Assembly (NCBI RefSeq): GCF_000306945.1
Contig: NC_018518.1
Location: 3,658,001 to 3,722,000 of the forward strand
Direction of reading: 5' to 3'
DNA length: 64,000 bases
Source of the DNA: Bordetella pertussis 18323
Lineage (GTDB): Bacteria > Pseudomonadota > Gammaproteobacteria > Burkholderiales > Burkholderiaceae_B
In this document: piece after piece, positions 6,926-49,909 of the stretch
How positions within the stretch are numbered: the stretch's first letter is position 1
How the letters are laid out: the number at the start of each line of letters is the position of its first letter
Notes under the pieces: model-generated
The model's database searches: none
Seen by the model: the letters and a program-made list of their open reading frames with translations, nothing else
Told to the model about the DNA's origin: nothing
Made by a program: the position numbers and the translations under genes

Positions 6926-8260
6926 CGCGCCGTCGAACTGCTGCGCCAGGTCGGCATCGACGAGCCGGAACTGCGGGTCAAGCAGTATCCGCACCAATTC
7001 TCGGGCGGCATGCGGCAACGGGTGGTGATCGCCCTGGCGCTGTCGTGCGGGCCGGAAGTCATCATCGCCGACGAGCCGACCACCGCGCTGGACGTGTCGA
7101 TCCAGGCGCAGATCCTCGACCTGTTGCGCAAGCTGTGCAGGGAGAAACAGGTCGGGATGATCATCATCACGCACGACATGGGCGTGATCGCCGACGTCAC
7201 CGACCGCGTGGCCGTACTGTACCGCGGCAAGCTGGTCGAACAGGGGCCCACCGCCAAGATACTCGGCAACCCGGACCACCCCTACACGCGCAGCCTGATC
7301 TCCGCCGTGCCGCGCCCCGACGTCAAGCTGCGGCGCTTCCCCGTGGTGACCTATATCGAGGACGTCAAGCGCCCGACCGTGGAACTGGACATCGCCACCC
7401 ACTGGCTGGGCCAGCGGCGCGAGTTCGCCCGGCGCGCCGCAGGGCCGCTGGTGGAAGTGGAAGACCTGGGCATGCGCTTCGTGCTGCGCAACGCCTTCCT
7501 GGCGCGCAACCGGCGCACGCTGGACGCGGTCAAGCAGGTCAACCTGTCGATCAACGAGGGCGAAGTGTTCGGGCTGGTGGGGGAGTCGGGTTCGGGCAAA
7601 TCCACCGTGGCCCGCCTGATCGCCGGCCTGTACACGCCCACGAACGGGCGCGTGCTCTTTAACGGCGTCGACCTGACCGGCCTGAAGGACGAGAAGCGGA
7701 TGAACGCGTTCAGGCGCCAGATCCAGATGGTGTTCCAGGATCCCTATTCGTCGCTCAACCCGCGCATGCGGGTGCAGGAAATCGTGGCCGAGCCGATCCG
7801 CTTTCACCGCCTGGCTGAAGGCGAGGCGCAGACCCGCCGCGTGGTGGCCGACCTGCTCGACGTGGTCGGCCTGGGCGCATCCGCCGCGCAGCGCTATCCG
7901 CACGAATTCTCCGGCGGCCAGCGCCAGCGCATCTGCATCGCGCGCGCGCTGGCCACCCGGCCGCGCTTCCTGATCTGCGACGAACCGACCTCGGCGCTGG
8001 ACGTGTCGATCCAGGCGCAGATTCTGAATCTGCTCAAGGATCTGCAGGAACAGCTGGGCCTGACCATGCTTTTCATCAGCCATGACTTGCCGGTCATCCG
8101 CCAGATGTGCGACCGGGTCGGCGTCATGCTGCACGGCCAACTGCTGGAAACGGCGGCCACCGAGACCCTGTTCACGCATCCGGAGCACGATTACACCCGG
8201 CACCTGCTCAGCCTGATGCCGCGGCTGCAGTCTCTGCAGCCGGTGCCGTCGGCCGGGTAG
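6926..8260 (+). pseudogene. dipeptide/oligopeptide-type ABC transporter ATPase (DppD-DppF fusion), N-terminus lost
   Basis: The remnant of a double ATPase that would power periplasmic-binding-protein-dependent peptide import. The first nucleotide-binding domain starts at [14 protein letters not shown] and keeps the signature FSGGMRQR, Walker [13 protein letters not shown] and the H-loop ITHDMG, but its Walker A is gone. The second domain is complete: GESGSGKST, FSGGQRQR, FLICDEPTSALD and FISHDL, with the oligopeptide C-terminal extension. An in-frame TAG (6923-6925) from the IS481 flank closes the frame upstream. The first possible ATG is at 7010. It has the size and order of GsiA-like fused ATPases with roughly the first 150 residues missing. 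Permease genes are not in the window. Confidence 0.88.
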
Positions 8261-15059: not shown

Positions 15060-15168
15060 GATGTACTCCTGGCAGACAGGCGCGTAAAGCTGGCGCGCAG
15101 TGACGCGCATGCGCCCAGCACATGCGCAACCCCGGCAGACTACCATCGCTTGCGCCTTGACTGCTAGC

Positions 15169-16211
15169 TGTGAAGATTCAATAGGTTGTATGCATGGTTC
15201 ATCCGAACCGGATTTGAGAAACTGGAAATCGCCAACCCCCCAGTTCACTCAAGGAGCCCGGCCGGATGAACACCCATAAGCATGCCCGATTGACCTTCCT
15301 ACGTCGACTCGAAATGGTCCAGCAATTGATCGCCCATCAAGTTTGTGTGCCTGAAGCGGCCCGCGCCTATGGGGTCACCGCGCCGACTGTGCGCAAATGG
15401 CTGGGCCGCTTCCTGGCTCAGGGCCAGGCGGGCTTGGCCGATGCGTCCTCGCGCCCGACGGTCTCGCCCCGAGCGATTGCGCCGGCCAAGGCGCTGGCTA
15501 TCGTGGAGCTGCGCCGCAAGCGGCTGACCCAAGCGCGCATCGCCCAGGCGCTGGGCGTGTCAGCCAGCACCGTCAGCCGCGTCCTGGCCCGCGCCGGTCT
15601 GTCGCACCTGGCCGACCTGGAGCCGGCCGAGCCGGTGGTGCGCTACGAGCATCAGGCCCCCGGCGATCTGCTGCACATCGACATCAAGAAGCTGGGACGT
15701 ATCCAGCGCCCTGGCCACCGGGTCACGGGCAACCGACGCGATACCGTTGAGGGGGCCGGCTGGGACTTCGTCTTCGTGGCCATCGATGACCACGCCCGCG
15801 TGGCCTTCACCGACATCCACCCCGACGAGCGCTTCCCCAGCGCCGTCCAGTTCCTCAAGGACGCAGTGGCCTACTACCAGCGCCTGGGCGTGACCATCCA
15901 GCGCTTGCTCACCGACAATGGCTCGGCCTTTCGCAGCCGCGCCTTCGCCGCGCTGTGCCATGAGCTGGGCATCAAGCACCGCTTTACCCGACCTTACCGC
16001 CCACAGACCAATGGCAAGGCCGAACGCTTCATCCAGTCGGCCTTGCGTGAGTGGGCTTACGCTCACACCTACCAGAACTCCCAACACCGAGCCGATGCCA
16101 TGAAATCCTGGCTACACCACTACAACTGGCATCGACCCCACCAAGGCATCGGGCGCGCTGTACCCATCTCCAGACTCAACCTGGACGAATACAACCTATT
16201 GACAGTTCACA
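15169..16211 (+). mobile_element. IS481: IS481 copy 3
   Basis: A complete 1,043 bp plus-strand copy flanked by GCTAGC at 15163-15168 and GCTAGC at 16212-16217. The flanks match, but GCTAGC is the commonest flank in this window, so matching alone does not prove a simple insertion. Neither flank is inside a gene, so continuity cannot be tested. Confidence 0.95.
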
Positions 16212-16216
16212 GCTAG
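15266..16216 (+). CDS. tnp: IS481 transposase (copy 3)
   Basis: Intact, 316 residues. The last codon is AGC (Ser) and the stop TAG comes from the GCTAGC flank. Confidence 0.95.
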   Translation: MNTHKHARLTFLRRLEMVQQLIAHQVCVPEAARAYGVTAPTVRKWLGRFLAQGQAGLADASSRPTVSPRAIAPAKALAIVELRRKRLTQARIAQALGVSASTVSRVLARAGLSHLADLEPAEPVVRYEHQAPGDLLHIDIKKLGRIQRPGHRVTGNRRDTVEGAGWDFVFVAIDDHARVAFTDIHPDERFPSAVQFLKDAVAYYQRLGVTIQRLLTDNGSAFRSRAFAALCHELGIKHRFTRPYRPQTNGKAERFIQSALREWAYAHTYQNSQHRADAMKSWLHHYNWHRPHQGIGRAVPISRLNLDEYNLLTVHS

Positions 16217-16255
16217 CGAAAAGCCAGAAAAATGGCAATCCTGAGGCAATATGGA

Positions 16256-25927: not shown

Positions 25928-26143
25928 GGAACTCCGGAGGGCCTTGAAACGGAATCGGACGCGGCAGGGCCGGCCGACGCAGGCCACGATTATGCAAAAG
26001 ATCACCGGCAGGCGAAAGCGCGCCGGCCGCGTGCATTGATACATAAAGACGCAATATTCAAATCCAGAAACGCAATAAAGCGCAACAATCGGCATTGGCG
26101 CCGGCCCGTACGCGGGCGCGCCGTCCTGATCTCAAGCTGGTCG

Positions 26144-27094
26144 CTAGTTGTGAACTGTCAATAGGTTGTATTCGTCCAGGTTGAGTCTGGAGATGGGTAC
26201 AGCGCGCCCGATGCCTTGGTGGGGTCGATGCCAGTTGTAGTGGTGTAGCCAGGATTTCATGGCATCGGCTCGGTGTTGGGAGTTCTGGTAGGTGTGAGCG
26301 TAAGCCCACTCACGCAAGGCCGACTGGATGAAGCGTTCGGCCTTGCCATTGGTCTGTGGGCGGTAAGGTCGGGTAAAGCGGTGCTTGATGCCCAGCTCAT
26401 GGCACAGCGCGGCGAAGGCGCGGCTGCGAAAGGCCGAGCCATTGTCGGTGAGCAAGCGCTGGATGGTCACGCCCAGGCGCTGGTAGTAGGCCACTGCGTC
26501 CTTGAGGAACTGGACGGCGCTGGGGAAGCGCTCGTCGGGGTGGATGTCGGTGAAGGCCACGCGGGCGTGGTCATCGATGGCCACGAAGACGAAGTCCCAG
26601 CCGGCCCCCTCAACGGTATCGCGTCGGTTGCCCGTGACCCGGTGGCCAGGGCGCTGGATACGTCCCAGCTTCTTGATGTCGATGTGCAGCAGATCGCCGG
26701 GGGCCTGATGCTCGTAGCGCACCACCGGCTCGGCCGGCTCCAGGTCGGCCAGGTGCGACAGACCGGCGCGGGCCAGGACGCGGCTGACGGTGCTGGCTGA
26801 CACGCCCAGCGCCTGGGCGATGCGCGCTTGGGTCAGCCGCTTGCGGCGCAGCTCCACGATAGCCAGCGCCTTGGCCGGCGCAATCGCTCGGGGCGAGACC
26901 GTCGGGCGCGAGGACGCATCGGCCAAGCCCGCCTGGCCCTGAGCCAGGAAGCGGCCCAGCCATTTGCGCACAGTCGGCGCGGTGACCCCATAGGCGCGGG
27001 CCGCTTCAGGCACACAAACTTGATGGGCGATCAATTGCTGGACCATTTCGAGTCGACGTAGGAAGGTCAATCGGGCATGCTTATGGGTGTTCAT
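26144..27094 (-). CDS. tnp: IS481 transposase (copy 4)
   Basis: Intact, 316 residues from ATG 27094; last residue Asn. The extra base in the leader opens the frame further upstream, but that extension is not coding. Confidence 0.94.
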   Translation of the reverse strand: MNTHKHARLTFLRRLEMVQQLIAHQVCVPEAARAYGVTAPTVRKWLGRFLAQGQAGLADASSRPTVSPRAIAPAKALAIVELRRKRLTQARIAQALGVSASTVSRVLARAGLSHLADLEPAEPVVRYEHQAPGDLLHIDIKKLGRIQRPGHRVTGNRRDTVEGAGWDFVFVAIDDHARVAFTDIHPDERFPSAVQFLKDAVAYYQRLGVTIQRLLTDNGSAFRSRAFAALCHELGIKHRFTRPYRPQTNGKAERFIQSALREWAYAHTYQNSQHRADAMKSWLHHYNWHRPHQGIGRAVPISRLNLDEYNLLTVHN

Positions 27095-27192
27095 CCGGCC
27101 GGGCTCCTTGAGTGAACTGGGGGGGGTGGCGATTTCCAGTTTCTCAAATCCGGTTCGGATGAACCATGCATACAACCTATTGAATCTTCACA
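26149..27192 (-). mobile_element. IS481: IS481 copy 4 (1,044 bp), at a rearrangement joint
   Basis: A complete minus-strand copy one base longer than the others, because the homopolymer upstream of the transposase has eight G (8 C on the coding strand). Flanks differ: GCTAGT at 26143-26148 and CCTAGC at 27193-27198. The right flank opens inside a LysR-type gene whose first half is absent, so this is a joint made by recombination between IS copies. Confidence 0.94.
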
Positions 27193-27198
27193 CCTAGC

Positions 27199-27749
27199 CG
27201 CCTTGCGGCCGCGCGTGCACGTCCAGCTGATCGAACGCCCCGTGCCCGAACTGTTCGCCGCGCTCCAGGAAGGCGACGCCGACGCGCTCGTCACCACCTA
27301 CGCGCCGCAGCACATCGAAGCCGTCAAGATGCCGTTGCACCAGGAAAAACTCTACGAATCGACCTACCAGCTCGTCGCGCCCCCGGAACATCGGTTCGCC
27401 AGATCGCGCCGGCCCGTGCCGCTGGCGAAACTGGTCAACGAAGACTGGATCCTGCCCGCCCAGGACTCGATGCTGCGCAAGGAGATAGACTGGGTCTTCC
27501 GCCGCGCCGGGCTGCTGCCCCCGGTGCCCGTGGTCGAAGCCAACAACCCCACCACCAGCATCCAGCTGGTCGTGGCCGGCATAGGGCTGGGTTTCGCGCA
27601 CGGCGAAACGCTGCAGAACGTCCCCCCCCGGCACCGTCGCCCCCATCCGCATCTCGCCCTCCCCGGCCAGCGCGCAGGTCGCGCTGATCTATCGCGCCAA
27701 GCGGGTCAATGAAAAGGTCCAGGCATTGCGGGCGGCGCTGGGGTTGTAG
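27199..27749 (+). pseudogene. LysR-type regulator fragment (effector-binding half), frameshifted
   Basis: Only the substrate-binding domain of a LysR-family regulator remains: VQLIERPVPELFAALQEGDADALVT, LYESTYQLVAPPEHRFA, VNEDWILPAQDSMLRKEIDWVFRRAG and TSIQLVVAGIGLGFAHGETLQN. The DNA-binding half would lie left of IS481 copy 4 and is not there. The frame breaks at a run of eight C (27622-27629); reading one base over restores a normal ending (GTVAPIRISPSPASAQVALIYRAKRV then EKVQALRAALGL) with TAG at 27747-27749. It is dead twice over. Its former target genes are not identifiable. Confidence 0.85.
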
Positions 27750-27895: not shown

Positions 27896-29122
27896 CTACG
27901 CAAATGCGGGCTCGAAATCCACCAGATCAGTGCCTTGCATGCCGAGCCCCCTGGCCACGACGCGCCAGCTGCCTACGGCCTGAGCTACCTCCGTCCAGAT
28001 TGCGGCCGCTTCTTCCGCAGCCAATCTGAAGTAAGGCGCCCCTTCCATCAACATGTCCCGGCTCTCAATCGGCCCGGAATCCTCCGTCAACCATGTCTTG
28101 CTCTCGCGGCGATCCCCTGGCATCGGATTGAGGTCGAATGCTGGCGACAGACGCCAGCCATGGTTACGCGAGTCATACAGGAACCCGGTATTCCGCAAAT
28201 GGTCATCGGTATTGCAGATCAGAAAATTGAGGACCAGCCGGCGCCACAACTGATGTATGTCGGCAATCGGGTCCGCACCTTCCCGCAGCAGGACATCGAC
28301 CAGTTCCGTATAGGCGTGCACGGTGTCCCGGCCATCAGACTGCAGCATCGTCGCGGCCGATACATAGGGAATACGGCCGCCATCGTCGGTACGATCGAAC
28401 CGCCGGATGATGGCAACCGCCGTCCCGCCGATCAACTCCACACGCGCCGCTGCCACCTTGATGCCTGCTTTGGCAGCAAGATGCATGGCCAGCACTTCGC
28501 CTCGGATGACATCGCGTCGGTCAGCCTGGCTGGGAAACTTGCCCAATGCCAGGCGGCCATCCGTATCCCGCACGCTCGATTTGGGCCGAGCTCCGCCCAG
28601 CGAAGTCCCTTGCCCGAGCAGATATTGCAGGTCGCGCGCGGTCTCCGTTCCAGCCTCCAACGCTCGAGCCGCTTGCACGACCTTATCCAGCTCCACCAAC
28701 GGCGGCACATGCCCGGGCGTTGCGCCTGAGCGCAAATAGACTTTGGCGTGAGGATCGAAAAGCCGCAGCGCGCCGACACGAGCCTCGTCATCGACCCACA
28801 TCAGGAAGTCGACAGGCTCCAGCGGAGGCGTCTCTCCGTCCTGCTGTCGCAACCTCGCATGCGCACGCCGGATCACGCGTTCGCCCCACGAGTCCGGCGC
28901 AGTGTCCTCCAGCGCGCGAAAGAATACTTCCTGAGGGTGCTGTACGCTGAGGACGGGCAGCAAATCAGGCGACAGCGTGAAGAACCTCGCATCGCGCAAC
29001 CAGCGCTCGTCGTAGCTGAACGCACTGCGCTTGCCGCTGCCCAGATACAAGCGCCCGACAACCTGGCCGGTAGATCCCAGATGCACTTCCAGGTCCTGAC
29101 GCCTCAAGGACTTGGTCGCCAT
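27896..29122 (-). CDS. HipA-family serine/threonine kinase toxin
   Basis: A 408-residue HipA-type kinase. The N-terminal subdomain has VVGRLYLGSGKRSAFSYDERWL; the glycine-rich loop is GTSLGGARPKSSV (about 172-184), with the Ser that HipA-type kinases autophosphorylate. The catalytic loop is FLICNTDDHLRNTGF (D306/D307 region) and the metal-binding motif is LSPAFDLNP (D330). In E. coli HipA phosphorylates Glu-tRNA synthetase and causes dormancy; the target here is unknown. Its start overlaps the HipB-like stop by one base (TGATG), the usual antitoxin-toxin coupling. All key residues look intact, so it may be active. Confidence 0.88.
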   Translation of the reverse strand: MATKSLRRQDLEVHLGSTGQVVGRLYLGSGKRSAFSYDERWLRDARFFTLSPDLLPVLSVQHPQEVFFRALEDTAPDSWGERVIRRAHARLRQQDGETPPLEPVDFLMWVDDEARVGALRLFDPHAKVYLRSGATPGHVPPLVELDKVVQAARALEAGTETARDLQYLLGQGTSLGGARPKSSVRDTDGRLALGKFPSQADRRDVIRGEVLAMHLAAKAGIKVAAARVELIGGTAVAIIRRFDRTDDGGRIPYVSAATMLQSDGRDTVHAYTELVDVLLREGADPIADIHQLWRRLVLNFLICNTDDHLRNTGFLYDSRNHGWRLSPAFDLNPMPGDRRESKTWLTEDSGPIESRDMLMEGAPYFRLAAEEAAAIWTEVAQAVGSWRVVARGLGMQGTDLVDFEPAFA

Positions 29123-29724: not shown

Positions 29725-30666
29725 TTAAGTACCAACCTCGTTAAACCAATGAACTACTTCGAACAAATGTGGCTCAGTGGTCAACAACATCCGAACGGCT
29801 TCAAGCACACGGTGTGACACGACAGGATTACGCGCGCCCGCACGTGCTTCGCCGATAGTGAAGCCGCAGAATCGCTCGCCGTTGTTTGACAGCGTCAGCG
29901 CGATCACTCGGTAACCGACCTCTACCGGCAGGCCTAAAGCAAGCACTCTACCTTCTTGCCGCCTGGCACTGGCCAGAGGGAAAGGGTCGAATATAAAGTA
30001 CTCACCTGTTTCTATCAGCTCACCATTCGAGCCCGCGATGTCAGATATCTCTGGAACCTCCCAGTGCATATGCGAGGGCATAGACTCCGGCACAGAGATA
30101 TGTACTAAACCCACAAATGGGAAACCATAGCACAGCAACCCTCTTACCTGTGCTCTCCCCATTGTGTTTGCATTCCGCCCCGGATTGCTAATTGATGGAC
30201 GAACGATCTTGGCTTCAATGGCAATCGTCCGTTCTAAGAGGATTTCGTTGTCAGAGAACGGAACGATCAAACAGTCAACGTCTCCTGGCCGTTGATCAGG
30301 AGAAAGCTGCAGCTTGGCTCTTGGAATGTTGATCCCGACGTAAACGCTTTGAGCGAAGGCATGTTCAGGATAAGGAAATGCGGAGTCAAGCGCAAAGTAC
30401 ATCGTGCTGGCAAGCGCTTGCCGATTAGCAACAATACGCTTGAGAACTTCTGCCTCGGAGCTAAGCCAATCAAGCATAAGTGCCGCTATCTGACGGATTC
30501 GGAACGCACCAAGCAGTCTTGGGCGCGAAACGAGCCTGCTGTCCCAAAGAAAATCGCATCGAAATTCAGCTTCGGGCATCCGGAATGCCCGGGTCAGTTC
30601 CGGAACAGCACCGCCTATAACTGCCCCACCGTCCGCATGCTCCAAGGACGGAAGTTCGGTATCCAT
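29725..30666 (-). CDS. unrecognised protein with PD-(D/E)XK nuclease-like motifs
   Basis: A 313-residue protein from ATG 30666. I cannot name a family. Residues 128-153 show GDVDCLIVP, then 19 residues after D131 the EAK triad (E151, K153), followed by GRAQVRGLLCYGF with Q173. D-(19)-E-x-K on predicted strands, followed by a helix with Gln, is the layout of PD-(D/E)XK nucleases. Elsewhere there are RPRLLGAFRIRQIAALMLDW and FEVVHWFNE at the C-terminus. No signal peptide or membrane segment is seen. The frame is also open upstream to 30918, but that part is antisense to a transposase remnant and not native. It lies 183 bp downstream of the hipBA promoter region, on the same strand and upstream of it in transcription order. 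Codon use is less GC-rich than in core genes. Function is not assigned; a role in DNA or RNA cleavage is inference only. Confidence 0.6.
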   Translation of the reverse strand: MDTELPSLEHADGGAVIGGAVPELTRAFRMPEAEFRCDFLWDSRLVSRPRLLGAFRIRQIAALMLDWLSSEAEVLKRIVANRQALASTMYFALDSAFPYPEHAFAQSVYVGINIPRAKLQLSPDQRPGDVDCLIVPFSDNEILLERTIAIEAKIVRPSISNPGRNANTMGRAQVRGLLCYGFPFVGLVHISVPESMPSHMHWEVPEISDIAGSNGELIETGEYFIFDPFPLASARRQEGRVLALGLPVEVGYRVIALTLSNNGERFCGFTIGEARAGARNPVVSHRVLEAVRMLLTTEPHLFEVVHWFNEVGT

Positions 30667-30712
30667 ATGGGTTTGCGGTGAAAGTTGGAACGGGTGATGG
30701 CGTAAAAGGGCA

Positions 30713-30935
30713 TAGCGATCCGCTATATCCAGCCTGGCAAGCCAAATCAGAACGCCTTTATCGAGCGCTTCAATCGAACTTATCGGACCGAGGTGCTCGA
30801 CGCGCACCTGTTCGCCAACCTTGAGCTGGTCCAAGCGATTACCGATCAATGGCTGGTCGATTACAACCAGTACCCGTCCGCACAAATCGCTGGGCGGCCT
30901 CCCGCCGATGCAATTCATGCCCCGGTTAACCCTCG
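30713..30935 (+). pseudogene. IS3-family transposase C-terminal remnant
   Basis: The frame reads IQPGKPNQNAFIERFNRTYR then TEVLDAHLFANLELVQAITD and WLVDYNQ, the end of an IS3-family OrfB carrying the catalytic Glu (NAFIERFNRTYR). Everything before and the two Asp residues are missing, and the normal RPHEALG motif is already degraded (YPSAQIAGRPP). No inverted repeats were found. It marks an old IS insertion at the left edge of the aromatic operon. It is unrelated to IS481 and to the 4622-5828 element. Confidence 0.8.
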
Positions 30936-31089
30936 CTCCGGTCGTCTATCAGACAATGTCTACTTGACAGGGGGGGCTTACGACAGCAAACGCTCATGGC
31001 CCACTGCCTCTGCCTCGATCAAGGGCCGTTTGAACGACCATCGTGGTCCCTATTTTGAGTTGCATAAAGAGACGTACAACCGGCTCACA

Positions 31090-32064
31090 TCACTCGTCTT
31101 CTTTCAGCGCTTCGGTGGCGGAGGCTCCCCAAGCGCGTACATTTTCATTAAATAGCGCCTGCCACTCTCCGGGCGATGTAGACGGTGTTATCGGAACAGT
31201 GCCGCTTGCAACGACTAATTTTTGCATCTCGGGCTTAGCCAAAATTTTATTAACCGCCACGTTCAGGATTTGCGTTATCGCTGGTGACAGGCCTGCTGGA
31301 GCAAACAAGCCAAACCAACCTACATCATCATACGAAATGCCAGCCTCGACAAGCGTTGGCACATCTGGCAGCGCCTGAGCCCGCACAGGTCCTGTTATGG
31401 CCAATGCTTTCAATTTCCCATCTTTGACCATGGGCATCATCGATATAACATCGAGAATGCCAATGGACACCTGCCCGGACAGCAGCTCGGTGATTGCCTC
31501 GCTGCCACCCTTGTATGGAATGTGCAGCATTTTCATGCCTGCCAACTCCTGTATTTTCTGCCCGGCGAGATGGGGTGGAGAGGCGACGCCAAAGGTAGCA
31601 AAAGAAATACTATCTTCATTTTGTTTTGCCGCTGCGACAAGATCTGAAATCGAGTTCAGTGGTGAGTTCGCACGCGTTACCACCAGCAACGGCACCATGG
31701 ATATCTGCGTTATTGCAGTAAAGTCCTTGATGGGGTGAAAGCTGAGATCTGGAAAAATGGCGGGAGCGATGGCAAATGGAGCGGATGTCATTAATAGTGT
31801 ATAGCCATCATTATCCGCACGCGCCACGGAAGCCGCCCCAATATTACCGGCAGCTCCACTCCGATTTACCACAATGACCGGCTGCTTTAACTCCCTGCCT
31901 AACTGTTCTGCAAGGGCGCGGCCCATGATATCCGTGCCCCCACCGGGTGGGAACGGTACGACCAGTGTAATAGCTTTGTCGGGATAGGCCGCAGCATTCG
32001 CACCCCCCCATGCCCCTAAGATACCGAGCGCCGTTCCCACTACCGTCTTAGCAATCCAGTTCAT
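31090..32064 (-). CDS. Bug (TctC)-family periplasmic solute-binding protein
   Basis: A 324-residue precursor with a signal peptide (TVVGTALGILGAWGGANAAA). The Bug signature YPDKAITLVVPFPPGGGTD is followed by KQPVIVVNRSGAAGNIGAA, LHIPYKGGSEAITELLSGQV and PDVPTLVEAGI. Bug proteins bind carboxylic or aromatic acids, amino acids or related anions, and are exceptionally numerous in Bordetella. This is the last gene of the AT-richer minus-strand operon, so it probably binds the substrate of the dioxygenase system or a product. No TctA/TctB permease is nearby. Confidence 0.88.
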   Translation of the reverse strand: MNWIAKTVVGTALGILGAWGGANAAAYPDKAITLVVPFPPGGGTDIMGRALAEQLGRELKQPVIVVNRSGAAGNIGAASVARADNDGYTLLMTSAPFAIAPAIFPDLSFHPIKDFTAITQISMVPLLVVTRANSPLNSISDLVAAAKQNEDSISFATFGVASPPHLAGQKIQELAGMKMLHIPYKGGSEAITELLSGQVSIGILDVISMMPMVKDGKLKALAITGPVRAQALPDVPTLVEAGISYDDVGWFGLFAPAGLSPAITQILNVAVNKILAKPEMQKLVVASGTVPITPSTSPGEWQALFNENVRAWGASATEALKEDE

Positions 32065-32120
32065 TTGTCTCTTCCTTTATTTTTAATATGATTTATTTTT
32101 ACTGGAAAGGTCGGCCCTGC

Positions 32121-32702
32121 TTAATTGTGAGTAATTTTTGTTCCCAGCAACGTTGCAAACTGAGCAATCCACGCCGGGTGTGAAGGCCAGGCAAAGGCGG
32201 TAACCAAGTTTCTATCGGTAATCGCTTCATCCATGGGAATATCGACATACGTCCCCCCCGCGGCTGTCACCTCGGGGGCGCAGGTGTTATAGCAGGCGCA
32301 TTTATACCCTTCCAACACACCCGCAGTACTGAGAATTTGAATGCCGTGGCAGATACAGGCAACTGGCTTTTCGGCTTCAAAGAAATAACGAACCAACGCC
32401 AACAATTTCGAGTTGAGACGCAAATACTCGGGCGCCCTGCCTCCCGGGATCACCAGTCCGTCGTACTTCTCCATCTCTATCTGATCGAATGAAGCATTCA
32501 ATGTGAACCTGTGGCCCGGCTTTTCACTATAGGTTTGCGCTCCTTCGAAGTCATGAACGGCTGTCATGACGTAGTCCCCAGCAGCCTTGTCCGGGCACAC
32601 AGCATCCACCTGATACCCGAGCGCCTGAAAGGCCTGAAAAGGCACCATCACTTCATAATCTTCAACGTAGTCCCCTACAAGCATCAGCAATTTCCTGGCC
32701 AT
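32121..32702 (-). CDS. DJ-1/PfpI-family protein
   Basis: A 193-residue class I glutamine amidotransferase-like protein. The nucleophile elbow is [11 protein letters not shown] (Cys about 115), preceded by [16 protein letters not shown] with the partner Glu/Arg region. N-terminal [22 protein letters not shown] carries the conserved acidic residue. Members act as glyoxalases, chaperones, proteases or small-molecule hydrolases, so the activity is open. It lies 12 bp after the Rieske ferredoxin gene, clearly in the operon; a role on a ring-cleavage intermediate or in protection from reactive products is inference. Confidence 0.82.
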
Positions 32703-32714
32703 ACTGTTCTCCTA

Positions 32715-33032
32715 TTAATTATCCACACCTACGTAGACGACACCTTCTTTTACAGTCGTCTTGTATATCTGAATCGGCTTCTCTGCGGCGCCCAAGGGTT
32801 TCCCCGTTTCAAGATCCCACTGCCAGAGATGCTTGGTACATATCAATTTTGTTTTCTTGAACAATCCATTGCACAGCTTTTCATCCATATGTGGACAGAT
32901 AGCCTGGGCCGCGAAGAACTGCTCTCCATTTCGCATCAATATGATATCGAGCCCGTTAATTTTCTTTTCAACTATATCGCCTTCTCTTATCTCATTTTCT
33001 TCGCAGGCTTTAACCAAGTTAGCGCCCGTCAC
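32715..33032 (-). CDS. Rieske [2Fe-2S] ferredoxin of an aromatic dioxygenase system
   Basis: A 105-residue soluble ferredoxin. Cluster ligands are in AICPHMDEKL (C-x-H) and ICTKHLWQWDLETG (C-x2-H), with about 17 residues between. The WQWDLETGKP ending and small size match ferredoxins that pass electrons from reductase to the terminal ring-hydroxylating oxygenase. The spacing motif MDEKLCNGLF between the ligand pairs is normal for the group. The reductase gene precedes it by 103 bp. Confidence 0.9.
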   Translation of the reverse strand: MTGANLVKACEENEIREGDIVEKKINGLDIILMRNGEQFFAAQAICPHMDEKLCNGLFKKTKLICTKHLWQWDLETGKPLGAAEKPIQIYKTTVKEGVVYVGVDN

Positions 33033-33135
33033 AGAGAACCTTTATTTAAATATGCAGTGATCGTTTTCACTGCTCTTTGAAAAAATATTTCCAGGGCTTT
33101 CGGAATTTGGGCTTTCAATGATAATCGCTGCAACT

Positions 33136-34197
33136 TCAAACAAAACTATCGCACTCGATATCAAGCGCATCGATCTCTGTGTTGATCATCAGCTGCCTAA
33201 TCGTATGATCCACCATCGGCGGTGGCCCTGAAATATATACTTCCTTGCCTTCCCAGCTTATGCTCGCATCATTAACGATGTGATCAGCGGGATACCCTGT
33301 AAAAAACTCGATATACGGGAATCGGCCCCTGTCCTGTACGCTTGGCGATATATCGCTGCATACGGCAACCCGGAGGTTGGAATGAACCGCCGCATATCGA
33401 TTGAACACTCCGATAAGGTCGATGGGCGATGTGTCTCGAACACCCCAGAATATCGTCAGGTGCCGATCATCTATGTAATGGGAGGAAATGGCCCACTCCA
33501 ATGTGGACAGAGCCACCGACACGCCCGACCCGCCGACTAACATGACAAGTTCGTTATCTTTCTTGGGACGGATGTAGGCTTTACCCAGTGGCCCATATCC
33601 CTGCAATTGCATACCGATATTGTTGATATCACAGAGCTGCGGCGACATCGCTCCATTTGGGTTGCATGAAAGAATGAATTCCAACTGGCGGGAATCCTGC
33701 GCAAAATTTGCGACGGAATATGCGCGCGCCCGCCCCCCCGCCTTTGTAGCCAGCATCACATACTGGCCAGGTAAAAAACGAATGCTATCGTCAAGATCCA
33801 CCAATAAACGATACAAGCCAGAACCCAACGGCCGTACATCGTTAAGCGACGCGGCGTAATGTTTTGGCGCTGCCAAATCAGGCGGTACATTCTTGTCGTA
33901 TAAGGCCTCGAATACGCAATCAGACACGGCGTGGCTTTGACACAAATGCACCTCGGGGCATTCGCATGCTTGGCCCGCTGAATGCGAAACCTGTATGAAG
34001 TCGGTACCGGTATAGACTTTCAACGCTCCTTGAATGAGACGCGCCTTGCAAGAACCGCAGCTACCACTTGCGCAATGATAATTAAGCGGAACCGACTGCC
34101 GCAGCCCAGCTTGCAGTACCGATTCTTCTCCTGCAGCTACTGCAGCGTAATCGCCGACATCGTTCTTGAATAATATGCGTTGTTCTTGCTGCATCAA
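33136..34197 (-). CDS. NAD(P)H-dependent oxidoreductase with plant-type ferredoxin, FAD and NAD domains
   Basis: A 353-residue electron-transfer flavoprotein. N-terminal plant-type [2Fe-2S] domain (about 8-100): NYHCASGSCGSCKARL then CQSHAVSD gives the four Cys ligands. The FAD domain has RAYSVANFAQDSRQLEF (RxYS motif). The NAD domain has VMLVGGSGVSVALSTLEWA and the C-terminal YISGPPPMVDHTIRQL. The order matches reductases of multi-component ring-hydroxylating dioxygenases such as naphthalene and benzoate systems. It takes electrons from NAD(P)H and hands them to the Rieske ferredoxin. Start could be either of two adjacent Met codons. Confidence 0.9.
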   Translation of the reverse strand: MMQQEQRILFKNDVGDYAAVAAGEESVLQAGLRQSVPLNYHCASGSCGSCKARLIQGALKVYTGTDFIQVSHSAGQACECPEVHLCQSHAVSDCVFEALYDKNVPPDLAAPKHYAASLNDVRPLGSGLYRLLVDLDDSIRFLPGQYVMLATKAGGRARAYSVANFAQDSRQLEFILSCNPNGAMSPQLCDINNIGMQLQGYGPLGKAYIRPKKDNELVMLVGGSGVSVALSTLEWAISSHYIDDRHLTIFWGVRDTSPIDLIGVFNRYAAVHSNLRVAVCSDISPSVQDRGRFPYIEFFTGYPADHIVNDASISWEGKEVYISGPPPMVDHTIRQLMINTEIDALDIECDSFV

Positions 34198-34228
34198 TTT
34201 TTACCCTTCAAATAAGCCAGCATCTCAT

Positions 34229-35515
34229 CTATACAAAAACAAGGCTGATATATGGGAAAGCGGCAACGATAAGCCAGGCAACAAGAATTGGAATAATCAT
34301 TCTCACAATCTCGGCCATCAACTCCCCGTAATCTATTTTCATTGTCATCGACGTAATGAACAGATTCAGGCCATGCGGAGGGCTAATAAATCCTATCGAC
34401 GCGCCAATAATAAAAATCATGCCCCAGTGCACACCATTCATGCCAATTTCTGTTGCGATAGGAGCAAATATCGGCGCCAAAATCAGTATTACTGCAATGA
34501 CTTCCATGAACGTGCCGAAGAGCAAAACAATGCCCATCATTACCGCTAGCGTAACCGTTGCGCCATAAGCAGATGAAAGTTCTACCAACTGAACCAATAT
34601 CAAGTCTGGAATTTCCATTACGGAAAGAATCTGTTGAAACTGGATGGAAAAAACAACGATCGGCCCGATGATTCCGGTCACCGAAGCGCTTTCCATAAGT
34701 ATTTTTGGTATGTCTCGAATGCCAAACTGGCTAGACCAATATAGTCCGATCACCGCGCAGTAAATCGTGACGACGCCCGCGGCTTCGGTCGGGCTAAACA
34801 GGCCCGAATACAGGCCGACAAACAAAAGCGCGATAGCGATAAAGGCTGGGGTTGCCCCAAGCACCGAGGTTCCTACTTCTTTAAAGTAGCCATCTGTGGA
34901 TTTCGATGCGGGCTCATACTGACGCGTACGCATGATCGACACGAAAAATATGAACAGCAGTATGAGTATGCCTGGCAATATCGCTGCCAGATTCAGCTCA
35001 ACCGGAGAAACGTTAACCGTCAAGCTATAAATGATGATGATGGTGCTTGGCGGAATGAGTCCGCCAAGGATTCCGCCGGCGGCTACCGTCGCGCCTCCTC
35101 GTCGCATGGGAATTTGGGCCCGTTTAAATTCCGGAGCCATCAACTTGCCCATGGTCGCTGCAGCGGCTGCACTCGAACCACTAATGGCGCAAAACATGCC
35201 ACTGGCCAGCACCGAGGTGGCTGCCGTTCGACCTGGCACGGCACGGATAACCGCGCGCGAAAATTTGATCAATTGTTGTGAAACGCCGCCCGCGGTGAGT
35301 AGATCCCCCGTAGCAATAAATAAAGGTACTGCCAGGAATGTATAGTTCTTTAACGAATCAATGGACGTCAATCCCATACTCATCAAAGGATAATCAATTA
35401 CCCAATAAGATGTTGCCGCCACCCACACAGCAAGCAAGAGGACCATCGGCGTGCCGAGAATGAACAGCGCTATACAAAAAAATGAAATTAGTAAGAGCAT
35501 AAATAGTCCCGACAA
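34229..35515 (-). CDS. TRAP transporter large permease (DctM-type)
   Basis: A 428-residue inner-membrane protein with about twelve hydrophobic segments. The family core is evident in VPLFIATGDLLTAGGVSQQL, SGSSAAAAATMGKLMAPEF, GGLIPPSTIIIIYSLTVNVS and FISPPHGLNLFITSMTMK. It is the ion-coupled transport subunit that, with DctQ and the binding protein DctP, imports carboxylates. Its start lies 15 bp after the DctQ frame, which is broken, so the whole transporter is probably inactive unless DctM works alone or with another DctQ. Confidence 0.92.
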   Translation of the reverse strand: MSGLFMLLLISFFCIALFILGTPMVLLLAVWVAATSYWVIDYPLMSMGLTSIDSLKNYTFLAVPLFIATGDLLTAGGVSQQLIKFSRAVIRAVPGRTAATSVLASGMFCAISGSSAAAAATMGKLMAPEFKRAQIPMRRGGATVAAGGILGGLIPPSTIIIIYSLTVNVSPVELNLAAILPGILILLFIFFVSIMRTRQYEPASKSTDGYFKEVGTSVLGATPAFIAIALLFVGLYSGLFSPTEAAGVVTIYCAVIGLYWSSQFGIRDIPKILMESASVTGIIGPIVVFSIQFQQILSVMEIPDLILVQLVELSSAYGATVTLAVMMGIVLLFGTFMEVIAVILILAPIFAPIATEIGMNGVHWGMIFIIGASIGFISPPHGLNLFITSMTMKIDYGELMAEIVRMIIPILVAWLIVAAFPYISLVFV

Positions 35516-35530
35516 TTAATTTCAGCTGAC

Positions 35531-36069
35531 TCAAGCGCTCAAATAATTATTAATTCGCTCGTTTTCAAGAAAGTCCCACTGAAACAGAACCAGCCATAAC
35601 CGCTGAACAATTCTCAACATTGAAAAGGCCCAACCCAGGGGTACCCCCAAATTGATGATCCATGCGGGAATAGGCGTACTCATGACCATTTGCTCGGTCA
35701 CAAAATTGCTCGAGATAAGTTCGGCCGTACTCCAGAACACGACGGCGCCAATGGCCAGCCATAGAATTGCATCGATGACTTCCAATACTCTTCTGACAGG
35801 CGCAGGAAGGGAGTTTCTGATCTTTGTGAAGCCCAGGTTGGTTCCGTAGCGACAATGCCTTGCCATGGCAAACCAAGATAGCCAGATAAATGAGTACATC
35901 GCAATCTCAGGCCCCCACAAGTTGCTTGCTCTTGGAAAATGGCTCTGCGAATAGTCTCTCCGCCCACCAGACAGATGAGTATGAGATAAGTGACTATCAT
36001 CACCGAGTTCTCTATTCTCAGGAGAACCCGGTCAAGATTGGCGTTTGTGCAAATCTTCTTCAGCGTCAT
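35531..36069 (-). pseudogene. TRAP transporter small permease (DctQ-type), frameshifted
   Basis: The N-terminal part MTLKKICTNANLDRVLLRIE with its first helix VMIVTYLILICLVGGETIRR is in one frame from 36069. The rest (WGPEIAMYSFIWLSWFAMAR, VLEVIDAILWLAIGAVVFWS, IPAWIINLGVPLGWAFSMLR) is in another, down to 35531. The frame change lies near 35920-35935, around CAAGAGCAAGCAACTTGTGGGGG on the coding strand (only part shown by key bases GAGCAAGCAAC). Together the two pieces make a normal four-helix DctQ of about 175 residues. One indel therefore inactivates it. It sits between dctP and dctM as usual. Confidence 0.85.
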
Positions 36070-36129
36070 CTTTTCCCGCCGCTTTTAGTATTCAAATTTT
36101 TGATGCATTGGCGAATTGCAGAGACGTGC

Positions 36130-37311
36130 TTATGTCCACCACTTCTCGGCCATTAATTCTGTACTTGATGTATTTTTGGCATACTCGCTCAGGGCACCGT
36201 AGACATCGATTCCTGCAATGTCATCAAGTTGCTTTCTCAGATTTGCATACAACTGTGAGTTGTTTTCAACCGAGCCGCTCTCCTTGAACGCTGCGTGCTG
36301 CTCGTGGCTCAGTTTTATCTGGCGGATTTTGCCTCGTTGATACGCGGAATCAGGAGATGGGTTGGGGCCAATACCTACTAGCGTAGACTCGGCAATAATC
36401 GAAGTTTGGTATGCTTCGACCATGCTCTCGTATGCAGATTCGTAGATCAGCTCTTGCAAGCGCTCAGGCAGTTTGTCAAAAGTCTTGGCTGCCATGAAAA
36501 TCATCGAATAGCCTGGACAAAACTGAACGTCAATATCCTGAGACAAGACCGAGTACATACCGAACCCCGCGGCAGCGCTTGGGTAGGTTTCTGTCGCGTC
36601 CACCAACCCAGACTTCAAACCCTCCAGCAGTTCTCCCCAGGCTAATGGGATGGGTGCCATCCCCATACTCTTGGCGAAATTGCTGATCATCTCGCTATTC
36701 GTAATTCGGATCTTGGCGCCGTTGAGTGCATCGGGCGATGTGATATCCGCTGCCTCGGAATATTTTTTGCCCATCATAATGTTGCGCATACTTCCGCTTG
36801 CATACAGAGGCACCACGCCGTATTTGTTTCGCAGCACGTCGCGATACAGGCGATTCGATTCTTTACTCAACAAAAAATTATGATAGGCGACTCGGCTTTT
36901 CCAAAGAAATGGCCAGTCCAACGCGACGGAATACGGCATGGTTGCGCCGGTATTCTGAAAGGTCGAGGAACCCATGTGCAGAATGCCACTCATTACTCGC
37001 TGAGCACACTGATCTTCAGAGCACGCCTGGGCTTTATCAATCAGCTGAATTGCAATCTCGCCATCCGATTTTCGCTGGACGCGCTCCACGAAGTCGTAAA
37101 TACCAGGAGCTGTATACTCTGCCGCTGACGGAGTATAAATAGTGCCGAATCTGAATCGGTAAGCCGCCTTTGCTTCCGATTTGGCAAAAGAATTAAACGG
37201 TGCGAGGACCGCGGCGGCACCGGCTCCAGCCGTCAGAATGGTGCCCATGCCAAGACCAGTCAACTTGCGCAGCGTGCTACGGCGCATACTGTTGTGATTG
37301 CTGTGTGTCAT
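36130..37311 (-). CDS. TRAP transporter solute-binding protein (DctP-type) with Tat-like signal
   Basis: A 393-residue periplasmic protein. The N-terminus has SMRRSTLRKLTGLGMGTILT, a twin-arginine signal (RRxxLRK) followed by a hydrophobic stretch and AKSEAKA. The DctP fold is seen in IYTPSAAEYTAPGIYDFVER, GSMRNIMMGKK and GAKIRITNSEMISNFAKSMG, the last containing the conserved substrate-carboxylate Arg, then WGELLEGLKSGLVDATETYP. It captures an organic acid for the DctQM permease. It starts 20 bp after the dioxygenase beta fragment, so the acid is probably the aromatic substrate of the oxygenase (inference). Confidence 0.88.
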   Translation of the reverse strand: MTHSNHNSMRRSTLRKLTGLGMGTILTAGAGAAAVLAPFNSFAKSEAKAAYRFRFGTIYTPSAAEYTAPGIYDFVERVQRKSDGEIAIQLIDKAQACSEDQCAQRVMSGILHMGSSTFQNTGATMPYSVALDWPFLWKSRVAYHNFLLSKESNRLYRDVLRNKYGVVPLYASGSMRNIMMGKKYSEAADITSPDALNGAKIRITNSEMISNFAKSMGMAPIPLAWGELLEGLKSGLVDATETYPSAAAGFGMYSVLSQDIDVQFCPGYSMIFMAAKTFDKLPERLQELIYESAYESMVEAYQTSIIAESTLVGIGPNPSPDSAYQRGKIRQIKLSHEQHAAFKESGSVENNSQLYANLRKQLDDIAGIDVYGALSEYAKNTSSTELMAEKWWT

Positions 37312-37331: not shown

Positions 37332-37631
37332 TTAGATAGGCACATGAATGCCTGAGCCAAGATCACGGGTATTCAAATACACCTTGCGCTCCAGCAGCCG
37401 CAGTTGATCCTGTTTACGTGTGACTTTGTCTGTATAACTACCTACTGCAAACAACTTGGTGGTTCCGCACTGGTCGGTGTGCATGACCATGATCTGCGAG
37501 CGGACCTCATAGCAGTTCTCCTCAGCAGCTCTAATGCGCACCATGCTGATATTTCTGGTGAAATCTCCCTTCATCCGAACATGCTGATAAATCAGCAGCA
37601 TCAGATTACGTATTTCCTTGTAATCATGATC
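37332..37631 (-). pseudogene. ring-hydroxylating dioxygenase beta subunit, C-terminal fragment
   Basis: About 100 residues of a small (beta) subunit of a Rieske non-heme iron ring-hydroxylating dioxygenase. RNISMVRIRAAEENCYEVRS, TKLFAVGSYTDKV, RLLERKVYLNTRDLG and the final GIHVPI match the SnoaL-like fold end of the family. The N-terminal half is missing at IS481 copy 5. The catalytic alpha subunit, normally just upstream, is absent from the window. Beta subunits are structural, so the oxygenase cannot be assembled from this locus. This was the first or second gene of the operon. Confidence 0.78.
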
Positions 37632-37635
37632 TAGC

Positions 37636-38678
37636 TGTGAAGATTCAATAGGTTGTATGCATGGTTCATCCGAACCGGATTTGAGAAACTGGAAATCGCC
37701 GACCCCCCAGTTCACTCAAGGAGCCCGGCCGGATGAACACCCATAAGCATGCCCGATTGACCTTCCTACGTCGACTCGAAATGGTCCAGCAATTGATCGC
37801 CCATCAAGTTTGTGTGCCTGAAGCGGCCCGCGCCTATGGGGTCACCGCGCCGACTGTGCGCAAATGGCTGGGCCGCTTCCTGGCTCAGGGCCAGGCGGGC
37901 TTGGCCGATGCGTCCTCGCGCCCGACGGTCTCGCCCCGAGCGATTGCGCCGGCCAAGGCGCTGGCTATCGTGGAGCTGCGCCGCAAGCGGCTGACCCAAG
38001 CGCGCATCGCCCAGGCGCTGGGCGTGTCAGCCAGCACCGTCAGCCGCGTCCTGGCCCGCGCCGGTCTGTCGCACCTGGCCGACCTGGAGCCGGCCGAGCC
38101 GGTGGTGCGCTACGAGCATCAGGCCCCCGGCGATCTGCTGCACATCGACATCAAGAAGCTGGGACGTATCCAGCGCCCTGGCCACCGGGTCGCGGGCAAC
38201 CGACGCGATACCGTTGAGGGGGCCGGCTGGGACTTCGTCTTCGTGGCCATCGATGACCACGCCCGCGTGGCCTTCACCGACATCCACCCCGACGAGCGCT
38301 TCCCCAGCGCCGTCCAGTTCCTCAAGGACGCAGTGGCCTACTACCAGCGCCTGGGCGTGACCATCCAGCGCTTGCTCACCGACAATGGCTCGGCCTTTCG
38401 CAGCCGCGCCTTCGCCGCGCTGTGCCATGAGCTGGGCATCAAGCACCGCTTTACCCGACCTTACCGCCCACAGACCAATGGCAAGGCCGAACGCTTCATC
38501 CAGTCGGCCTTGCGTGAGTGGGCTTACGCTCACACCTACCAGAACTCCCAACACCGAGCCGATGCCATGAAATCCTGGCTACACCACTACAACTGGCATC
38601 GACCCCACCAAGGCATCGGGCGCGCTGTACCCATCTCCAGACTCAACCTGGACGAATACAACCTATTGACAGTTCACA
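37636..38678 (+). mobile_element. IS481: IS481 copy 5, likely joint between AT-rich and GC-rich DNA
   Basis: A complete 1,043 bp plus-strand copy with TCTAGC on both sides (37630-37635 and 38679-38684). The left side is the broken dioxygenase gene; the right side is immediately very GC-rich and does not continue that gene. The matching flanks could be chance (only 16 NCTAGN variants exist) or the deletion may predate the insertion. Confidence 0.94.
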
Positions 38679-38683
38679 TCTAG
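37733..38683 (+). CDS. tnp: IS481 transposase (copy 5)
   Basis: Intact, 316 residues, with T154A (HRVAGN instead of HRVTGN), a substitution not in the other copies. Last residue Ile, stop TAG from the target. Confidence 0.94.
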   Translation: MNTHKHARLTFLRRLEMVQQLIAHQVCVPEAARAYGVTAPTVRKWLGRFLAQGQAGLADASSRPTVSPRAIAPAKALAIVELRRKRLTQARIAQALGVSASTVSRVLARAGLSHLADLEPAEPVVRYEHQAPGDLLHIDIKKLGRIQRPGHRVAGNRRDTVEGAGWDFVFVAIDDHARVAFTDIHPDERFPSAVQFLKDAVAYYQRLGVTIQRLLTDNGSAFRSRAFAALCHELGIKHRFTRPYRPQTNGKAERFIQSALREWAYAHTYQNSQHRADAMKSWLHHYNWHRPHQGIGRAVPISRLNLDEYNLLTVHI

Positions 38684-38739
38684 CCTGGCGGGCACGGCGC
38701 ATGCGGGCAGGGCCGCGCGCCTATTGTTTTGGTAAATGG

Positions 38740-48366: not shown

Positions 48367-48864
48367 ATGTCCGCACCCGCCTGCGTGTCCGAGTTCGTCC
48401 GCTACGACGTCGACGCGGGGGTGGCCCGCATCACGCTCGACCGGCCGGATCGCCGCAACGCCATCGACGTTCCCATGCGCGCGGCCCTGCTGGCCGCGGT
48501 CCAGGCCGCCACGGCCGACCCGGCGGTGCGCGCCGTCGTCCTGGCCGGGGCGGGCGGCCATTTCTGCAGCGGCGGCGACGTCTCGACCATGCGCGGCGCG
48601 TCCATGAGCGCCGAGCAGGGACGCGACCGGATGGCGCCGATCGGCGCCTGTGCGCGGGCCTTGCTGGAAATGCCCAAGCCGGTGATCGCCGCCGTCGACG
48701 GGATCGCCTTCGGCGGCGGCTTCGGCCTGTGCCTGTGCGCCGACCTGGTGCTGGCCACGCCAGCGGCGCGCTTTTGCCTGTCGTTCATGCGGATCGGGCT
48801 GGTGCCCGATTTCGCCGCGGCGTTCACCTTGCCGCGCCTGGTCGGCCTGCAGCGCGCGCGCTAG
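48367..48864 (+). pseudogene. enoyl-CoA hydratase/isomerase, C-terminus lost at IS481 copy 6
   Basis: The first about 165 residues of a crotonase-family protein: VRYDVDAGVARITLDRPDRRNA, VLAGAGGHFCSGGDVSTMRG (oxyanion-hole region) and KPVIAAVDGIAFGGGFGLCL. The catalytic Glu area and the C-terminal helices (about 90 residues) are missing; a TAG from the IS flank closes the frame. The DNA on the far side of the IS is an unrelated glycosyltransferase, so the lost half is elsewhere or deleted. This was the third gene of the GntR-linked operon. Confidence 0.9.
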
Positions 48865-49811
48865 CTGTGAACTGTCAATAGGTTGTATTCGTCCAGGTTG
48901 AGTCTGGAGATGGGTACAGCGCGCCCGATGCCTTGGTGGGGTCGATGCCAGTTGTAGTGGTGTAGCCAGGATTTCATGGCATCGGCTCGGTGTTGGGAGT
49001 TCTGGTAGGTGTGAGCGTAAGCCCACTCACGCAAGGCCGACTGGATGAAGCGTTCGGCCTTGCCATTGGTCTGTGGGCGGTAAGGTCGGGTAAAGCGGTG
49101 CTTGATGCCCAGCTCATGGCACAGCGCGGCGAAGGCGCGGCTGCGAAAGGCCGAGCCATTGTCGGTGAGCAAGCGCTGGATGGTCACGCCCAGGCGCTGG
49201 TAGTAGGCCACTGCGTCCTTGAGGAACTGGACGGCGCTGGGGAAGCGCTCGTCGGGGTGGATGTCGGTGAAGGCCACGCGGGCGTGGTCATCGATGGCCA
49301 CGAAGACGAAGTCCCAGCCGGCCCCCTCAACGGTATCGCGTCGGTTGCCCGTGACCCGGTGGCCAGGGCGCTGGATACGTCCCAGCTTCTTGATGTCGAT
49401 GTGCAGCAGATCGCCGGGGGCCTGATGCTCGTAGCGCACCACCGGCTCGGCCGGCTCCAGGTCGGCCAGGTGCGACAGACCGGCGCGGGCCAGGACGCGG
49501 CTGACGGTGCTGGCTGACACGCCCAGCGCCTGGGCGATGCGCGCTTGGGTCAGCCGCTTGCGGCGCAGCTCCACGATAGCCAGCGCCTTGGCCGGCGCAA
49601 TCGCTCGGGGCGAGACCGTCGGGCGCGAGGACGCATCGGCCAAGCCCGCCTGGCCCTGAGCCAGGAAGCGGCCCAGCCATTTGCGCACAGTCGGCGCGGT
49701 GACCCCATAGGCGCGGGCCGCTTCAGACACACAAACTTGATGGGCGATCAATTGCTGGACCATTTCGAGTCGACGTAGGAAGGTCAATCGGGCATGCTTA
49801 TGGGTGTTCAT
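48861..49811 (-). CDS. tnp: IS481 transposase (copy 6)
   Basis: Full length with P29S (VCVSEAARAYG) in the helix-turn-helix, unique among the seven copies. An A-for-G change (GGAGCTCGGCC) also sits in its leader. Confidence 0.93.
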   Translation of the reverse strand: MNTHKHARLTFLRRLEMVQQLIAHQVCVSEAARAYGVTAPTVRKWLGRFLAQGQAGLADASSRPTVSPRAIAPAKALAIVELRRKRLTQARIAQALGVSASTVSRVLARAGLSHLADLEPAEPVVRYEHQAPGDLLHIDIKKLGRIQRPGHRVTGNRRDTVEGAGWDFVFVAIDDHARVAFTDIHPDERFPSAVQFLKDAVAYYQRLGVTIQRLLTDNGSAFRSRAFAALCHELGIKHRFTRPYRPQTNGKAERFIQSALREWAYAHTYQNSQHRADAMKSWLHHYNWHRPHQGIGRAVPISRLNLDEYNLLTVHS

Positions 49812-49908
49812 CCGGCCGAGCTCCTTGAGTGAACTGGGGGGTTGGCGATTTCCAGTTTCTCAAATCCGGTTCGGATGAACCATGCATACAACCTATTGAA
49901 TCTTCACA
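48866..49908 (-). mobile_element. IS481: IS481 copy 6, joins two unrelated genes
   Basis: A complete 1,043 bp minus-strand copy with GCTAGC on both sides (48860-48865 and 49909-49914). The left flank is a cut enoyl-CoA hydratase gene and the right flank is the end of an ArnT-like gene on the opposite strand. The two halves do not belong together, so the matching flanks are coincidental. Confidence 0.95.
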
Positions 49909-49909
49909 G

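Follow-up and report, generated by a model that had tools for sequence, protein, structure and literature searches.

Does a gene of no familiar family that stands beside a HipBA-like toxin-antitoxin pair encode a nuclease and, if so, is it a working part of that pair? The gene occupies positions 29725-30477 of a 64,000-nucleotide stretch of Bordetella pertussis 18323 (contig NC_018518.1, positions 3,658,001 to 3,722,000), hereafter the window. An original prediction, made from the letters of this stretch, had described a 313-residue protein in AT-richer DNA, with residues laid out as in PD-(D/E)XK nucleases. Our preferred reading, to which we give a probability of roughly 60%, is that the gene encodes a stand-alone, metal-dependent PD-(D/E)XK nuclease that is spread horizontally as defence cargo and is not an obligate partner of HipBA.

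Active-site residues and predicted fold

The layout of D131, E151, K153 and Q173 is present as first described (residue numbers here follow the 313-residue reading, whose first residue is coded from position 30666). In the 250-residue product preferred below, D129, D131, E151, K153 and H189 become D66, D68, E88, K90 and H126. Conservation was assessed in an alignment of 150 rows, comprising the window core, 146 database proteins and 3 locus proteins; these include close relatives and are not independent events, and for many the local identity to the window protein falls to 22-30%. D131 is aspartate in 147 rows (3 gaps), and E151 and K153 are each kept in 149 (1 gap), i.e., all three are invariant wherever a row has a letter at that position. 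D129 is aspartate in 146 rows and glutamate in one (3 gaps); Q173 is glutamine in 146, threonine in one and arginine in one (2 gaps); and H189 is histidine in 144, isoleucine in one and tyrosine in one (4 gaps). The conserved core of the family, D129/D131, E151, K153, Q173 and H189, is complete in the window copy. The C-terminal half is also conserved, at D227 (140 of the 150 rows), P230 (145), R236 (147), R240 (144) and N280 (137).

AlphaFold models of the 250-residue protein (predicted local distance difference test score, pLDDT, 92.5; predicted template modelling score, pTM, 0.88) and of a second subfamily described below (pLDDT 94.4, pTM 0.91) both order the core as helix, strand, strand, strand, helix, strand (alpha-beta-beta-beta-alpha-beta). 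In both, the second strand carries D131 and the third carries E151 and K153; Q173 falls in the next helix and H189 on the fourth strand. The family thus carries an acidic residue followed by E/D-x-K on the adjoining strand, the arrangement of a PD-(D/E)XK core, in which strands 2 and 3 bear the site, as judged from strand placement rather than from superposition of the catalytic atoms. The best structural neighbours of both models in VIA-align were the PaqCI nuclease domain, SfsA, EndoMS and restriction enzymes. Most of the named enzymes among the top 20 rows are members of the PD-(D/E)XK superfamily; proteins of unknown function are interspersed among them, and unrelated chains appear lower down. 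Foldseek alone found no significant match in the PDB for either subfamily model and, against viral models, returned herpesvirus UL24 (best E 8.9e-4). Because ORF20 of Kaposi's sarcoma-associated herpesvirus, a member of the UL24 family, is reported to have a conserved PD-(D/E)XK site, we take this match as suggesting superfamily likeness only. A sequence search of PDB chains gave two matches to sc-apCC-6 (E 2.1e-5 and 0.012), chains that, going by their name, are presumably designed coiled coils; both were set aside, as they cover only the C-terminal 30-35 residues. Taken together, the models indicate that the protein almost certainly adopts a PD-(D/E)XK fold, and activity as a nuclease is predicted within the family with good confidence. 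The original nuclease reading has therefore held on both points on which it turned, the invariance of the site residues and the closeness of the predicted folds to PD-(D/E)XK enzymes.

The protein is probably shorter than first described. The 313-codon minus-strand frame at 29725-30666 is real and stays open further 5', to 397 codons (30918 to 29725); the plus-strand frame over 29725-30666 is closed by several stops. When the mononucleotides of the 753-nt gene were shuffled 2000 times, the minus-strand frame never remained open. An alignment of 30 proteins included 27 homologues from outside the window's own lineage, of which 19 begin at M64, at most 6 residues ahead of it, or later, and 8 carry 11-57 additional N-terminal residues. 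Residues 1-63 are common only to P0002, P0003 and P0010, near-identical copies of the window protein. Since most homologues start near M64 and residues 1-63 are otherwise confined to these copies, the 313-residue start was rejected, the gene was taken as 29725-30477, and its product as about 250 residues; comparison of the sequences suggests that residues 1-63 are probably not translated. P0003, a full-length protein with 98% identity, represents 18 member sequences from 20 contigs; P0010 is an altered, shortened allele on a contig of 4,142,753 bp. That P0002 and P0003 are listed in the database at 397 residues illustrates how a family can be hidden by a start placed too far upstream.

Relatives of the nuclease and their neighbours

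A search of ~5.8 billion proteins yielded 47 relatives at E <= 0.001, 42 of them with lengths of 230-290 residues (median 250). A broader alignment, used as a profile and scored against the 7,997 candidates with most words in common, extended the family to at least 115 proteins and revealed the second subfamily, of about 265 residues. No family in Pfam, PADLOC, NCBIfam or PHROGs matched the 313-residue protein at E <= 1, and 23 diverse members matched Pfam and PADLOC at chance level only (best E 0.12 and 0.043, respectively), bearing out for these libraries the earlier remark that the protein fits no known family. Literature searches on HipA with anti-phage or restriction functions, Bordetella hipA islands, XK nucleases in defence islands, and hipBA with tRNA-Gly returned no description of the nuclease family, which is no proof of absence. 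The family is new and without a name in the searched libraries, but of a known kind.

It is also rare and sporadic. The first-subfamily profile matched 6 of 268 genomes in the window's bacterial family, and in the order (1/399) and the class (1/369) it matched the window's own genome only. With the second-subfamily profile, two of 330 genomes in the order were matched (the window's own, and one match taken as spurious) and three of 299 in the phylum (the same two and G1065); as each genome is scored on only a few candidates, these searches may have overlooked some relatives. Two queries found no homologue in 50,697 phage records. Plasmids gave one truncated match, and IMG/VR, searched with two alignments, gave one contig, the first-subfamily alignment finding nothing there. 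Two candidates were dropped: L084 (E 5.7e-4), which sits in a spurious-looking open reading frame, and L003 (24% identity), where tblastn found nothing.

The gene context was read at ten distinct nuclease loci, after merging duplicates (L004, L005, L009 and L083 with the window; L006 and L010 with L017; L007 and L014 with L018; L011 with L002; L012 with L015; L013 with L016; and L085 with L087). PADLOC was run on 30 neighbouring genes from six loci (L001, 9; L002, 3; L008, 3; L015, 4; L017, 10; L086, 1) and on the HipA and HipB of the window; the neighbours in L087 were compared with Pfam, and the remainder were assessed by eye or from annotation. Toxin-antitoxin or restriction/defence genes lie near the nuclease at seven of the ten loci, a raw count set against no null model. 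At three of these (the window, L016 and L018) the neighbour is HipBA. At L087 (1120-10668), the nuclease is divergent from a type I operon, hsdR - Fic/DUF4172 - hsdM - hsdS - Mrr, and has a tRNA-Met on its other side. L086, the IMG/VR contig, has HsdR adjoining the nuclease and, by reading, phage tail-like genes. In L015 the nuclease lies, also by reading, directly downstream of guaA, with DUF3800, LmuA and LmuB within about 11 kb, and L002, from Pollutimonas bauzanensis, contains T5orf172 and a neighbour matching the PADLOC type II restriction endonuclease at E 1.7e-14. The other three loci were counted as lacking such genes; PADLOC found nothing there or only partial, uncounted matches: regulator and kinase parts and PDC-S33 (E 6.4e-10, 149/1005 residues) in L001, and regulator-like parts in L017 and L008. 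By reading, L001, from Methylotenera, has umuDC/LexA-like genes a few kb from the nuclease. L008 is a truncated plasmid copy adjoining an integrase and an IS3 transposase. A tRNA-Gly is present at the L016 and L018 nuclease loci; none of L001, L002, L008, L015, L017 and L086 contains a tRNA. The defence or mobile-element setting proposed from the window is thus supported by neighbouring genes in other genomes.

Among the window genes adjoining the nuclease no methyltransferase was seen, the rest of the genome not having been searched for one. Across the loci read, the one methyltransferase noted close to the nuclease, by annotation, Pfam or eye, belongs to the L087 type I operon. A cognate methyltransferase beside the nuclease, as expected of a type II restriction-modification system, was therefore not found.

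HipBA and the tRNA-Gly(CCC) slot

The HipBA-like pair of the window is intact and lies on the same strand as the nuclease gene (Table 1), as originally described; its HipA_C kinase domain and helix-turn-helix antitoxin appear, from the sequence, to form one operon. HipA was found at 69 places in 63 of the 268 genomes of the bacterial family. Of these places, 37 were examined with their flanks (the window, L016, L018 and 34 others), and the 32 left out were mostly weaker. Only at the window, L016 and L018 does the nuclease adjoin hipBA; the other 34 loci have no nuclease. In L018, from another genus, the order nuc-hipB-hipA is that of the window, and the nuclease is reduced to about 75 residues. 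In L016, a member of the second subfamily lies in convergent orientation beside a different hipBA. At seven of the ten nuclease loci, tblastn found no match to the window HipA or HipB.

A tRNA-Gly(CCC), its 3' end facing the hip genes, is present in 19 of the 36 hipBA loci of relatives (12 of the 18 loci whose HipA is of the close type and 7 of the 18 with the other type), namely L018, L050, L052, L053, L055-L058, L060, L063-L065, L069, L070, L072, L074, L075, L080 and L016. The gap from tRNA to hip measures 248-530 bp in nine of the 12 close-type loci and 69-151 bp in four of the seven other-type loci. Five of the other six gaps hold an additional gene or open frame: the nuclease (L016, L018), a RES-domain protein, which is toxin-like (L057), a dehydrogenase (L055) or a 485-residue protein (L072). 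The sixth (L075) is 623 bp long and holds no recognised gene. Because this gap holds the nuclease or other cargo in relatives, hipBA and the nuclease look like occupants of a shared insertion slot at the 3' end of tRNA-Gly(CCC). A random-placement calculation, assuming a mean genome of 4.6 Mb, put the presence of a close HipA within 3 kb in 3 of 6 nuclease-bearing genomes far above chance, and the excess holds when the window and L018 are counted once; a shared slot would explain it without joint function. The HipBA neighbourhood emphasised in the original prediction therefore recurs, at three loci, but a dedicated link is not upheld.

In the window's own genome the tRNA-Gly(CCC) lies at 3648320-3648391, about 39 kb from the nuclease. 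Given this distance and the seven near-identical IS481 copies in the window, the nuclease-hipBA block has probably moved. These insertion sequences lie at 500-1553, 5873-6931, 15163-16219, about 26142-27203, 37631-38684, 48859-49919 and 61319-62374; the six others are 99.4-99.7% identical to the 26-kb copy over about 1,055 bp. Seven such copies in 64 kb point to a genome like that of Bordetella pertussis. A LysR-type regulator C-terminal fragment (27203-27712) adjoins the 26-kb copy and, by reading, was apparently cut by it.

The nuclease gene has a guanine-plus-cytosine (GC) content of 51.5%, compared with 62.4% for hipBA and 61-72% in 2-kb windows outside 27-39 kb, in agreement with the AT-richer DNA first noted. 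The transposase remnant said to border the gene can be seen on the plus strand; the evidence for it is a weak rve_3 match, below cut-off, and the reading of its translation. An IS3 transposase N-terminal remnant was also read beside the tRNA-Gly(CCC) of this genome (L090 9315-9830; G000:C1 about 3647814-3648329), and the orientation of the N- and C-terminal remnants misfits one simple split element. A minus-strand cluster at 31090-37311 (49.6% GC) begins with a TctC receptor and continues, by reading, with DJ-1/PfpI-like, Rieske ferredoxin, ferredoxin reductase and TRAP transporter genes; it looks like an acquired catabolic island.

Table 1. Features of the nuclease neighbourhood, in window positions.
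Feature	Position	Strand	Basis
PD-(D/E)XK-type nuclease gene, predicted, 250 residues	29725..30477	-	Homologues, alignments, AlphaFold model, VIA-align; start is ATG, M64 of the 313-residue numbering (position 30477)
Reading-frame extension, residues 1-63 of the 313-residue reading	30478..30666	-	Only in near-identical copies
hipB-like antitoxin/regulator gene, 139 residues	29122..29541	-	couple_hipB E 4.1e-11 (below NCBIfam cut-off); HTH_31 E 1.1e-6
hipA-like kinase toxin gene, 408 residues, intact	27896..29122	-	HipA_C E 5.6e-41; Couple_hipA E 2.9e-5
IS3-like transposase remnant (integrase core C-terminus), broken	30690..31155, left edge approximate	+	rve_3 E 0.049 (below cut-off); reading of translation
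IS481 transposase, intact	26144..27175	-	NF033577 E 3e-99; six further IS481 copies in the window

Proposed role, alternatives and known systems

PD-(D/E)XK enzymes coordinate a divalent metal through acidic residues, and their lysine assists in activating water. By analogy, D131 (perhaps with D129) and E151 of the window protein would bind Mg2+ or Mn2+, K153 would serve hydrolysis, and DNA would be the substrate that is cut. The loci suggest that the gene travels horizontally as cargo of insertion hot spots, at tRNA ends and elsewhere, that gather toxin-antitoxin and restriction genes, and that its target may be phage or other incoming DNA; a role in defence or against mobile elements is, from this context, the view we favour, though well short of certainty. 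The nuclease probably works without HipBA. As L087 is the only locus among those read with a methyltransferase nearby, the nuclease would more likely recognise modified DNA or need a trigger, as type IV enzymes do, than act as a classical type II enzyme; assignment to a type IV-like mode, rather than a triggered or other one, is a tentative choice with less than even odds. The C-terminal half, with D227, P230, R236, R240 and N280, may be, at a guess, the seat of family-specific recognition. A more detailed version is possible but doubtful: that the family, as yet undescribed, provides Pseudomonadota with a nuclease that acts against phages or plasmids as a single gene, its two subfamilies (roughly 250 and 265 residues) being placed in tRNA-end and comparable defence slots next to HipBA, type I restriction-modification and Lamassu-type genes, and that it would combine an H189-assisted site with a C-terminal half reading modified or phage DNA.

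Could the nuclease and HipBA instead be one tripartite defence or toxin system, in which HipBA would sense or arrest and the nuclease cut? The co-directional order shared by the window and L018 (there with a truncated nuclease), the second subfamily beside a different hipBA in L016, and the excess of close HipA genes over random placement are what such a system would predict. Yet 34 of 37 hipBA loci do without the nuclease, 7 of 10 nuclease loci do without this HipA and HipB, L016 is convergent, and the shared slot, which can hold other cargo (L057, L055, L072), explains the adjacency; we rejected a dedicated unit as the principal explanation on the strength of the hipBA loci and the slot, consider such a partnership unlikely, and regard the full tripartite system as very improbable. 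It is also unlikely that the nuclease is linked to mobility, as a homing-like or excision-helping enzyme that aids the spread of a tRNA-end element and has no part in defence. The tRNA-Gly at L016 and L018, the tRNA-Met at L087, the position downstream of guaA in L015, and the integrase and IS3 transposase beside the plasmid copy in L008 fit this idea; tRNA-end sites, however, gather all kinds of cargo, no integrase or recombinase constantly accompanies the nuclease in the loci read, six loci lack a tRNA, and phage records and IMG/VR gave none and one homologue, respectively.

A DNA-repair or housekeeping-like nuclease of the EndoMS/NucS or SfsA kind, found in accessory regions by chance, would account for the presence of SfsA and EndoMS among the best structural neighbours and for the umuDC/LexA-like genes of L001, but the very sporadic spread (6/268 in the bacterial family, the own genome alone in order and class) is unlike that of a housekeeping gene, and we judge this explanation quite unlikely. 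Much the same holds for the idea that this one genome carries the gene as a decaying passenger without present function: its distance from the tRNA-Gly(CCC) in an IS481-rich region, the shortened allele P0010 and the truncated L018 copy would fit decay, but the window copy retains its full length and the whole conserved core, and the full-length P0003 represents 18 member sequences. Our reading of the gene as stand-alone defence cargo must also be set against a recent E. coli study in which 24 units with remote defence homology but low scores, six of them PD-(D/E)XK nucleases, were tested and just one was protective (PMC13092281). In the same study, PD-(D/E)XK nucleases head the list of domains in predicted defence proteins that are still uncharacterised, accounting for 9% of clusters, and 13 of 31 additional validated systems contain them (PMC13092281). 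The present family is a compact single-gene defence candidate without a model in the four profile libraries searched, and for genomes of the window's bacterial family the tRNA-Gly(CCC)/hipBA slot is a well-defined site at which to seek more toxin-antitoxin or defence cargo.

Among known enzymes, the N-terminal endonuclease domain of the type IIS enzyme PaqCI shares 12-15% identity with the window nuclease, which, unlike PaqCI, has no C-terminal target recognition domain and no adjoining methyltransferase in the window. Likeness to type IV enzymes is seen in the structural lists, where McrC and MspJI appear in both and AspBHI in one, in the little sign of a partner methyltransferase, and in the presence of Mrr itself at L087; in contrast to Mrr, McrBC, MspJI and AspBHI, however, the nuclease has no recognised modified-base reading domain and no Pfam match to Mrr or McrC. 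SfsA and EndoMS/NucS, at 9-19% sequence identity, are chromosomal housekeeping or repair genes, whereas the window nuclease is sporadic accessory cargo. Finally, DS-6/HipAD resembles the present locus in placing a HipA-like kinase in a defence setting; its second gene, in contrast, combines DUF3037 and DUF1829, being neither a PD-(D/E)XK nuclease nor like HipB (PMC13092281).
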